Positions 25,073 through 27,710 of a stretch of DNA of 64,000 bases are shown here, piece by piece (position 1 is the stretch's first letter; each line of letters begins with the position of its first letter). Position numbers and translations under genes: made by a program. The DNA lies in assembly GCF_000227685.2 (NCBI RefSeq), contig NZ_CP007029.1:3508501-3572500 (forward strand), written 5' to 3'. This stretch comes from Thioalkalivibrio paradoxus ARh 1 (GTDB lineage Bacteria; Pseudomonadota; Gammaproteobacteria; Ectothiorhodospirales; Ectothiorhodospiraceae). The notes beneath the pieces were generated by a model. The model searched no databases. It worked only from the letters and a program-made list of their open reading frames with translations, and was not told the DNA's origin.

Positions 25073-25756
25073 ATGATCCGGCTGCAGCGGGTGACCAAGC
25101 GCTTCGACGGGGGCGCGGAGGCGCTGCACAACGTCAGCCTGCGCGTGGACGAGGGTGCGCTCGCGTTCGTCACCGGCCCATCGGGCGCCGGCAAGAGCAC
25201 GCTGCTGCGGCTGATCGCAAGGCTCGAACGACCGACCCGCGGCCGGATCCTGGTCAACGACCAGGATCTCGCTACCCTCCCCAAGAGCCGTGAGCCGCAG
25301 TTCCGTCGCAGTATCGGGCTGGTGTTTCAGGATCATCGGCTGCTGTTCGACCGCCCGGTGCACGCGAACGTCGCGCTGCCACTGGAGATCCTCGGATACC
25401 GCCGCGCGGAAGCCCGCAAGCGGGTCCGCGCGGCGCTCGACAAGGTCGGGTTGTTGCACAAGGAAGGCGCGGAGCCGCAGACGCTGTCGGCGGGCGAGCA
25501 GCAGCGGGTGGGGATTGCCCGGGCGATTGTGCACCGGCCGGCGCTGTTGCTGGCGGACGAGCCCACGGGCAACCTGGATCCGGCGCTGTCGCGCGAGATC
25601 ATGCAGCTGTTCCTCGACTTCAATCGCGTCGGCGTGACCGCATTGATCGCGAGCCACAACCTCGAACTGATCTCGGCCCTGCGCAAGCCGATGCTGCACC
25701 TGGAGCACGGACGCATCGAGGCCCGCCACGCCCCCCGTGCGGCGAGCCCGGCATGA
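25073..25756 (+). CDS. ftsE: Cell division ATP-binding protein FtsE
   Basis: The ABC ATPase of the FtsEX complex, which links the division ring to peptidoglycan hydrolases. From the ATG at 25073 it is 227 residues: Walker A GPSGAGKST, the Q-loop in LVFQDHRLL, signature LSAGEQQRVGIARA and Walker B LLLADEPTGNLD. A GTG six bases upstream is a possible alternative. Twenty bases follow the ftsY stop, and the stop overlaps the ftsX start. Confidence 0.95.
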   Translation: MIRLQRVTKRFDGGAEALHNVSLRVDEGALAFVTGPSGAGKSTLLRLIARLERPTRGRILVNDQDLATLPKSREPQFRRSIGLVFQDHRLLFDRPVHANVALPLEILGYRRAEARKRVRAALDKVGLLHKEGAEPQTLSAGEQQRVGIARAIVHRPALLLADEPTGNLDPALSREIMQLFLDFNRVGVTALIASHNLELISALRKPMLHLEHGRIEARHAPRAASPA

Positions 25757-26679
25757 AGAAGGACGGCAGCGAACGCGCGGGTTGTTTCGAAGCCTGGCTG
25801 CACAACCACGCCGACGCGGCGATCCGGTCGTCCCGGCGCCGTCTGAGCGCGCCGGTGCAGACGCTGATCATGATCGCGGTGCTGGGCTTCATCCTGGCCT
25901 TGCCCGCGTATCTCTGGCTGCTGCTGGAAAACGCCCGGGCCCTGTCCGCCGACCTCGATCACGAACCGCGGATCGCGCTGTATCTGGACGACGTCGGCGC
26001 GGCAGAGCTGGCCGCCAAGGTCGAGCAGGTCGGCGACCTGGAGGGCATCGCGCAGGTCGACGCCACCGGAGCGGACCAGGCGCTCGACGCGTACCGTGCC
26101 AGCCTCCCGGACCCGGCATTGCTCGACTGGCTCGACGCCAACCCGCTGCCGGCCATCATCGAGGTGGTGCCGCTGCAGCATACCCCGGAGGCGGTGCAGG
26201 CGCTGGAAACCCGGCTCGCGGAGCGGCTGCCCGACGCCATGCTGATCAGCGATCACGAGTGGGTGCGCCAGCTCGAGGCGCTGCACGGCGCGGGACTCCG
26301 AATCCTGCTGGTGATCGCGGGACTGCTCGGGCTCGGAATCACCCTGATCCTCGCGGTGGCATCCGCCGCCGAATTGCGGGAGCGGCGCGAAGAAATCTCG
26401 ATCTCGCGCATCACCGGCGCCACGGACCGGTTCCTGCGCCGGCCGTCGCTGTATGGCGGACTGACGATCGGACTGGGTGGCGGGCTCTTCAGCTACGCTT
26501 TGCTATGGATCGGCGTCGGGTTGACCCGGCTCCCGGTGGAGGAAGCCGCCGGCGTGTTCGGGCTGCCGCTGGTATTCGTCGGACCGCAACTGCAACTGGC
26601 CGCGCTGCTGACCGGCGCCGGCGCGCTGCTCGGCTGGCTGGGCGCGAGGCTTGGCAGCGGCGCCGCGCTGCACGACTGA
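25753..26679 (+). CDS. ftsX: Cell division protein FtsX
   Basis: The four-helix membrane partner of FtsE. The 308-residue protein has an N-terminal cytoplasmic stretch, one membrane helix (about residues 38-60) and a periplasmic domain of about 110 residues for binding hydrolase activators. Three further helices follow in the C-terminal half, with the conserved cytoplasmic loop ELRERREEISISRITGATD. Its ATG overlaps the ftsE stop (ATGA), so the pair is translationally coupled. Confidence 0.94.
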   Translation: MKKDGSERAGCFEAWLHNHADAAIRSSRRRLSAPVQTLIMIAVLGFILALPAYLWLLLENARALSADLDHEPRIALYLDDVGAAELAAKVEQVGDLEGIAQVDATGADQALDAYRASLPDPALLDWLDANPLPAIIEVVPLQHTPEAVQALETRLAERLPDAMLISDHEWVRQLEALHGAGLRILLVIAGLLGLGITLILAVASAAELRERREEISISRITGATDRFLRRPSLYGGLTIGLGGGLFSYALLWIGVGLTRLPVEEAAGVFGLPLVFVGPQLQLAALLTGAGALLGWLGARLGSGAALHD

Positions 26680-26780
26680 CTGAAGGACCGCGCCGTTCCG
26701 TACACTGGCCTCTGCGGCAGCCGCTGGCCGTGCCCGTCCGCAGGCATCCCCCCGCGGCCTGCCGGGAACCCCTCCCGCCT

Positions 26781-26810
26781 TTAGCACTCCAATCGGCAGA
26801 CTGCTAGAAT
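26781..26810 (+). promoter_or_regulatory. CIRCE-like HrcA operator overlapping a promoter before rpoH
   Basis: The sequence TTAGCACTC-N9-GACTGCTAG (26781-26807) matches the CIRCE consensus TTAGCACTC-N9-GAGTGCTAA at 16 of 18 arm positions with exactly nine bases between arms. The downstream arm overlaps a TAGAAT (26805-26810) that fits a sigma-70 -10 element. It ends 40 bases before the rpoH start codon. This suggests that rpoH transcription is repressed by HrcA, layering the two heat-shock regulators. No hrcA gene is in the window. Confidence 0.6.
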
Positions 26811-26846
26811 CAGCCGCAAGCAATATTCTTCTCAGGGGAGACCTAC

Positions 26847-27710
26847 ATGAGCCAAGCATTGGTGCGCAAGCCCGTGGACATGCCGGTCCCAGTCGGCAAT
26901 CTGGATCACTATATCGCCGCCGTCAGCCGCATCGAGGTCCTCGACGCGCAGGAAGAGCAGCGTCTGGCGCGCGCGCTACGCGACCGGCAGGATCTGGACG
27001 CGGCACGGCAACTGATCCTGCACAATCTGCGGTTCGTCGTCCACGTGGCCCGCGGCTACCTGGGCTACGGCCTGCCGCTGGGCGACCTGATTCAGGAAGG
27101 CAATGTCGGCCTGATGAAGGCGGTGCGCCGCTTCGATCCCGAGCAGGGCGTGCGACTGGTCTCGTTCGCGGTTCACTGGATCCGCGCCGAGATCCACGAA
27201 TTCATTCTGCGCAACTGGCGGATCGTGAAGGTGGCGACGACCAAGGCGCAGCGCAAGCTGTTCTTCAACCTCCGTCAGGCCAAGCAGCGCCTGGGCTGGC
27301 TGAATCCCGGCGAGGTCACCGCGGTCGCCCGGGATCTGGGGGTGTCCGAAAGCGACGTGCTGGAGATGGAGAGCCGATTGTCGAGCCGGGATACCAGTTT
27401 CGACCCGGCGCCGGAAGACGACGAAGACCGGGAACACCGGGTACCGGCCGAGCACTTGGCCGGCAGTCCGGAGCACGATCCGGCGCAAGTCACGGAAGAT
27501 GCCGACTGGAACCGCCACTTCCAGTCCCGGCTCCGCGAGTCGCTGAATGCGCTGGATGCACGCACGCGCGACATCCTGACGCGGCGTTACCTGAGCGAAC
27601 CGAAGGCCACGCTGCACCAGCTGGCGGCCGAATACGGCGTGTCCGCCGAGCGCATCCGCCAGATCGAAAACCGCGCGATCCGCTCCCTGCGCGAAACCCT
27701 GGCGGCATAG
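26847..27710 (+). CDS. rpoH: RNA polymerase heat-shock sigma factor (sigma-32)
   Basis: It directs RNA polymerase to heat-shock promoters. The 287-residue protein has region 1.2/2 (NLRFVVHVARGYLGYGLPLG, DLIQEGNVGLMKAV), the -10 recognition segment around SFAVHWIRAEI, and the RpoH box QRKLFFNLR that separates sigma-32 from other group-3 factors. The region 4 helix-turn-helix is TLHQLAAEYGVSAERIRQIE. The position downstream of ftsX is conserved in gammaproteobacteria. The gene has its own promoter region with a CIRCE-like element. Confidence 0.96.
   Translation: MSQALVRKPVDMPVPVGNLDHYIAAVSRIEVLDAQEEQRLARALRDRQDLDAARQLILHNLRFVVHVARGYLGYGLPLGDLIQEGNVGLMKAVRRFDPEQGVRLVSFAVHWIRAEIHEFILRNWRIVKVATTKAQRKLFFNLRQAKQRLGWLNPGEVTAVARDLGVSESDVLEMESRLSSRDTSFDPAPEDDEDREHRVPAEHLAGSPEHDPAQVTEDADWNRHFQSRLRESLNALDARTRDILTRRYLSEPKATLHQLAAEYGVSAERIRQIENRAIRSLRETLAA

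Follow-up and report, generated by a model that had tools for sequence, protein, structure and literature searches.

A predicted CIRCE-type HrcA operator interlocked with promoter boxes ahead of rpoH in Thioalkalivibrio paradoxus ARh 1

The rpoH gene of Thioalkalivibrio paradoxus ARh 1, which encodes sigma-32, is preceded by a CIRCE-type inverted repeat. From its sequence, its conservation and its co-occurrence with hrcA, this element (positions 26781–26807 of the 64 kb stretch of DNA that was analysed, the window) very probably serves HrcA as its operator in the rpoH promoter region, where the repressor would block two promoters until released by heat. Predicted repression of rpoH by HrcA is strongly supported by the same evidence.

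The CIRCE element ahead of rpoH

The element consists of a left arm, TTAGCACTC (26781–26789), a spacer, CAATCGGCA (26790–26798), and a right arm, GACTGCTAG (26799–26807), followed by AAT up to position 26810, and 39 bp separate it from the rpoH start codon. An earlier note on this DNA had described a repeat with the arm length and spacing of CIRCE and two mismatches, overlapping a -10 element. We found both descriptions to be accurate: relative to the consensus TTAGCACTC-N9-GAGTGCTAA, 2 of 18 arm positions are mismatched, both in the right arm, the N9 spacing is exact, and TAGAAT at 26805–26810 fits an extended -10 element (Table 1). A chance match could be ruled out as the source of the repeat. 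Allowing three or fewer mismatches, this is the only CIRCE in the window, where 0.02 would be expected, and 2 of 100 shuffles of the window gave one such match; allowing two or fewer, it is alone in the whole 3,756,729-base genome. When upstream regions were base-shuffled, three mismatches were reached in 1 of 11,200 sequences and two or fewer in none.

Table 1. Features at and around the rpoH upstream region (window coordinates)
Feature	Position	Strand	Basis or remark
ftsX-like gene, upstream of the site	25753..26679	+	FtsX_Gneg 1.2e-53, under the curated cut-off
Predicted sigma-E type -35 box, GGAACCC (consensus GGAACTT)	26765..26771	+	GGAAC 16 bp ahead of CIRCE
Predicted CIRCE-type HrcA operator, TTAGCACTC-N9-GACTGCTAG	26781..26807	+	window sequence and conservation
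Weak sigma-70 -35-like hexamer, TTAGCA	26781..26786	+	inside the left arm, 18 bp from the -10; sequence reading
Predicted sigma-E type -10 box, TCCAA	26788..26792	+	runs from the left arm into the spacer; 16-bp gap to the -35
Predicted sigma-70 extended -10, TGC-TAGAAT (TGCTAGAAT)	26802..26810	+	overlaps the CIRCE right arm
Probable ribosome binding site, AGGGGAG	26834..26840	+	sequence reading
rpoH (sigma-32 gene)	26847..27710	+	TIGR02392 equivalog, E 3.6e-116, above cut-off

The earlier note had also held that an operator of this kind should be conserved upstream of rpoH in close relatives, and this is what we observed. Within a relatives set of 58 genomes, including that of T. paradoxus, rpoH was found in 56, and 50 of these, T. 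paradoxus included, carry a CIRCE with zero to two mismatches before the gene (24 perfect, 21 with one mismatch and 5 with two). The site is present in 29/29 genomes of the genus, 36/36 of the family and 14/20 from other families of the class; the six genomes in which it was not found (G038, G039, G042, G043, G049 and G056) gave the same result when spacers of 6–12 were allowed. Across the 50 aligned sites, conservation reaches 94% or more at 17 of 18 arm positions, and the third base of the right arm is split (G in 56%). The first three spacer positions (T, A, A) are kept in 70–78% of sites, and spacer positions 4–9 and the outer flanks vary. Conserved blocks were also found beyond the repeat, namely GGAAC at -16 to -12 (86–90%) and a T three bases 3′ of CIRCE (98%).

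The two mismatches in the T. paradoxus site could instead mark an ancestral HrcA operator that is now decaying in this species, with HrcA mainly controlling groESL, and within the genus the right-arm form GACTGCTA plus a final G is confined to G000, G003 and G010. We consider such decay very unlikely, as GACTGCTA itself occurs in 18 of the 29 genus genomes and in three hrcA-positive Ectothiorhodospira genomes (L200, L204 and L228), the species' own groES site is weaker still (below), and all 29 genus genomes in which rpoH was found have kept the site.

Predicted promoter boxes interlocked with the candidate operator

A second layer, absent from the earlier note, is a predicted sigma-E type promoter, GGAACCC-N16-TCCAA (26765–26792), that is interlocked with the CIRCE. 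RpoE promoters have a -10 element of TCnAA and a spacing of about 16 bp. In the part of PMC8103513 consulted, GGAACTT is given as the RpoE -35 box. The T. paradoxus sequence fits this pattern, with 5 of 7 positions of its -35 box matching GGAACTT. GGAAC lies at exactly the same offset in 38 of the 50 CIRCE-bearing rpoH genomes, and in 44 if one mismatch or a one-base shift is allowed; TCnAA is found at CIRCE positions 8–12 in 29 of the 50 sites, and 23 have both motifs. On the sigma-70 side, TGCTAnnnT is present at rpoH in 49/50 CIRCE-bearing genomes and in 76/76 site-bearing loci of the named set described below. At groES CIRCE sites (n = 29, four or fewer mismatches) these motifs were found 0 (GGAAC), 1 (TCnAA) and 3 (TGCTAnnnT) times. 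RpoE is encoded in the T. paradoxus genome (3.9e-92), and the box occurs in 41 of 44 CIRCE-bearing genomes with RpoE but is missing from G040, G046 and G052, three near-complete genomes that carry the CIRCE and gave no RpoE match above cut-off (Fisher 0.0012, with three incomplete MAGs set aside that lack a full RpoE match and all carry the box). Both predicted -10 elements, that for sigma-70 and that for sigma-E, would lie under bound HrcA.

An alternative is that rpoH is regulated chiefly at the post-transcriptional level, through an mRNA thermosensor of the E. coli kind, leaving the operator a minor role. Sigma-32 of E. coli is controlled at several levels, which favours such a view; against it, the predicted rpoH leader in T. 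paradoxus has a length of about 30 nt, and folding of the first 150 nt showed no advantage over shuffled sequences (z +1.26), weak evidence from a single fold of a single sequence. We regard a mainly post-transcriptional control as unlikely.

Co-occurrence of the site with hrcA

We found hrcA, whose absence would have spoken against the reading in the earlier note, at G000:C1:2842681-2843340 (Pfam HrcA part, 7.8e-64); the full protein scores 326 bits with the NCBIfam TIGR00331 equivalog, above its cut-off of 197. The gene lies upstream of grpE and of a gene whose start, by eye, resembles that of dnaK. The earlier note had also pointed to groES and grpE as places to look for CIRCE sites; groES has one, and the one at the other locus is degenerate. 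Ahead of groES, TTGGCACTC-N9-GGCTGCTAA has three mismatches, lies 62 bp before the start codon and shares one base with the -10 of a TTGACA-N16-TATTAT promoter. Because a reversed control pattern also yields one match with three mismatches in this genome, we credit the groES site for its position and for the groES sites of relatives, where 28 of 30 loci examined have a CIRCE with zero to two mismatches. CIRCE-type operators are predicted at both groES and rpoH. At the hrcA-grpE-dnaK operon we found only a five-mismatch CIRCE, just before hrcA (L089 5677-5703, minus strand). In the same place, three to four mismatches were counted at 12 of the 16 further loci of the genus that were examined, and three family members (G031, G034 and G036) have zero to two, a pattern that suggests fading autoregulation.

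In the relatives set, hrcA was found in 47 of 58 genomes, of which 46 also carry the site before rpoH. Nine relatives have rpoH and no detected hrcA; five of them have grpE and lack the site. The other four (G018, G019, G041 and G052) have the site and also lack an above-cut-off grpE match, for which reason we attribute their missing hrcA to an assembly gap in which the hrcA-grpE locus was probably missed. A second sample was drawn evenly across the phylum (130 genomes), and included 32 of the class, all with rpoH, 4 of which are also in the relatives set. Nine of the 10 class genomes with hrcA in this draw carry a zero- to two-mismatch rpoH site, the exception being G049, and in the 22 hrcA-less ones no CIRCE with an N9 spacer and three or fewer mismatches was found before rpoH (Fisher p = 3.6e-7, common ancestry ignored). 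G202 and G206 were counted as hrcA-less, being absent from the full list of hrcA matches. Outside the class, 31 of the 38 hrcA-positive genomes fetched showed no site at three or fewer mismatches before the rpoH copy examined, and the 7 that have one all belong to one family, f39. In that family a CIRCE with zero to three mismatches precedes rpoH in 7/7 members examined (L357, L360, L368, L371, L374, L381 and L383).

A set of named genomes provided 79 testable loci, some identical to records of the relatives set. Of these, 57 have three or fewer mismatches to CIRCE and 19 more match only a variant, TTAGCAGTC-N9-GACTGCTAA, giving 76 site-bearing loci that include Thioalkalivibrio, Ectothiorhodospira, Competibacter, Woeseia and, in the Lysobacterales, Luteimonas, Lysobacter, Pseudoxanthomonas and Xanthomonas. 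The three remaining loci are L198, L205 and L222. We detected hrcA in 26 of 30 named genomes checked, the four without it being Stenotrophomonas koreensis, Stenotrophomonas pictorum, the Woeseiaceae MAG L212 and L219. S. koreensis (L222) has lost the rpoH site and retains only a five-mismatch remnant of the variant. S. pictorum speaks against the HrcA-operator reading, as it keeps a site with one mismatch to the variant and three to CIRCE while its groES lacks a CIRCE. L212 has perfect CIRCE sites at both rpoH and groES, and its hrcA may therefore have been lost from the assembly. Conversely, an hrcA-positive Acidihalobacter MAG (L198) has no rpoH site. A second hrcA-positive MAG, L205, at first appeared to lack one as well; it has perfect CIRCE arms with a 10-bp rather than a 9-bp spacer, 55 bp before the rpoH match.

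The variant itself is a symmetrical alteration of the operator to TTAGCAGTC-N9-GACTGCTAA at Lysobacterales rpoH (loci among L208-L257, and L260-L286), and it suggests that HrcA specificity there is altered or tolerant. The Xanthomonas sites have an altered outer left arm, yet hrcA is present in 6/6 genomes checked. The groES operator is altered likewise in three Luteimonas genomes and not in Luteimonas J29 or Pseudoxanthomonas J31; as these two do not fit, we dropped coordinated drift of the groES and rpoH operators in the Lysobacterales as an argument.

These comparisons also bear on whether the palindrome is nothing but promoter, with conserved sigma-70 and sigma-E boxes producing the CIRCE match as a by-product. 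Each arm does share bases with a promoter box, and the persistence of the variant site in S. pictorum without hrcA fits such an origin. So does a pair of congeneric genomes: hrcA and the site are both present in G179, whereas in G175, which has no hrcA, the left arm is broken (the remnant has three mismatches to the Lysobacterales variant and a 10-bp spacer) and GGAACTT, TCCAA and TGCTAAGAT remain. We nevertheless judge a promoter-only origin highly improbable, since the strongly conserved arm positions include bases needed by neither promoter, the 22 hrcA-less class genomes of the draw lack the repeat at N9 and three or fewer mismatches, and the palindrome also occurs at groES, where the sigma-E boxes are absent.

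A proposed circuit and its precedents

From this we infer that HrcA would act directly on rpoH and groESL in T. paradoxus. The activity of HrcA depends on GroEL in other bacteria, according to the part of a review consulted (PMC6032397). At normal temperature, GroEL would keep HrcA active and HrcA would occupy the rpoH CIRCE, blocking both the sigma-70 promoter, through the extended -10 in the right arm, and the sigma-E type promoter, through the -10 that straddles left arm and spacer. Once GroEL is taken up with unfolded protein, HrcA would be released, and the freed rpoH would be transcribed by sigma-70, or by RpoE under envelope stress; sigma-32 would then switch on the chaperones. Several observations weigh against this reading of the site as an HrcA operator: its two mismatches fall in a single arm, the sigma-E -35 box is GGAACCC instead of GGAACTT, and hrcA-positive genomes without an rpoH site exist (G049 and L198). 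The sites in S. pictorum and L212, the remnant in G175, the altered arm in Xanthomonas and the 31 site-less hrcA-positive genomes from outside the class count on the same side.

The site resembles the classic CIRCE/HrcA systems of groESL and hrcA-grpE-dnaK in being a 9-N9-9 inverted repeat over a predicted promoter in a genome with hrcA, with groESL as a likely co-target. It differs from them in its target, the sigma-32 gene, in its interlock with a sigma-E type promoter and in having one off-consensus arm. The idea of a CIRCE at rpoH is not wholly new. The part of PMC545781 (2004) consulted, Table 8 included, gives predicted CIRCE sites in Geobacter sulfurreducens at rpoH (perfect, at -51) and groESL, the two targets that we predict for T. 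paradoxus. That case is delta-proteobacterial and comes from one genome, with a CIRCE also at its own hrcA operon, and the same part of the paper does not mention a sigma-E promoter at rpoH. The predicted sigma-E promoter of T. paradoxus also recalls E. coli rpoH P3, which is described as RpoE-dependent in the parts seen of PMC8103513 and PMC8745692, the -35 box of RpoE being GGAACTT; in T. paradoxus, unlike at P3, the predicted sigma-E -10 overlaps a candidate HrcA operator, and HrcA was not found in the E. coli control genome. A literature search, with most subscription journals outside its reach and sources seen in part, returned no gammaproteobacterial rpoH CIRCE and no sigma-E/CIRCE interlock. 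The main text of Leyn 2016 (PMC5343134) mentions neither HrcA nor rpoH, and no HrcA-rpoH link of this kind was found in the parts covered of PMC10490939, PMC10696704, PMC11764788, PMC3224663 and PMC9866376.

More broadly, a single HrcA operator may be built into the sigma-E and sigma-70 promoters of rpoH across many HrcA-bearing gammaproteobacteria. Envelope stress would then raise sigma-32 only if GroEL also signals misfolding in the cytoplasm, which would make the arrangement an AND-type gate. In lineages that lack hrcA, E. coli among them, the ungated sigma-E promoter of rpoH would be the remnant left by hrcA loss. On the sequence comparisons at hand, we see the case for this wider proposal as evenly poised. 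A loose sigma-E pattern precedes rpoH in 9 of 20 hrcA-less class genomes (with GGAACTT in G143, G147 and G175) and in none of the six site-less relatives. The idea that genomes without hrcA generally retain a sigma-E promoter was thus only partly borne out, and loss of the gate with retention of the promoter fits some lineages only. In hrcA-less L323 and L326 (G147 and G143), CTTGCAGTC-N8-CAGTGCTAC lies close after GGAACTT, 73 bp before the rpoH match; it is possibly a fossil CIRCE, with five mismatches, a level equalled by 6 of 60 shuffles.

The HrcA repressor and the sigma-32 heat-shock circuit are usually pictured as parallel. If the proposal is true, HrcA would rank above sigma-32 in a sizeable share of the gammaproteobacteria, the promoter concerned would receive envelope-stress input as well, and the E. 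coli arrangement would have a simple, testable account in the loss of hrcA.
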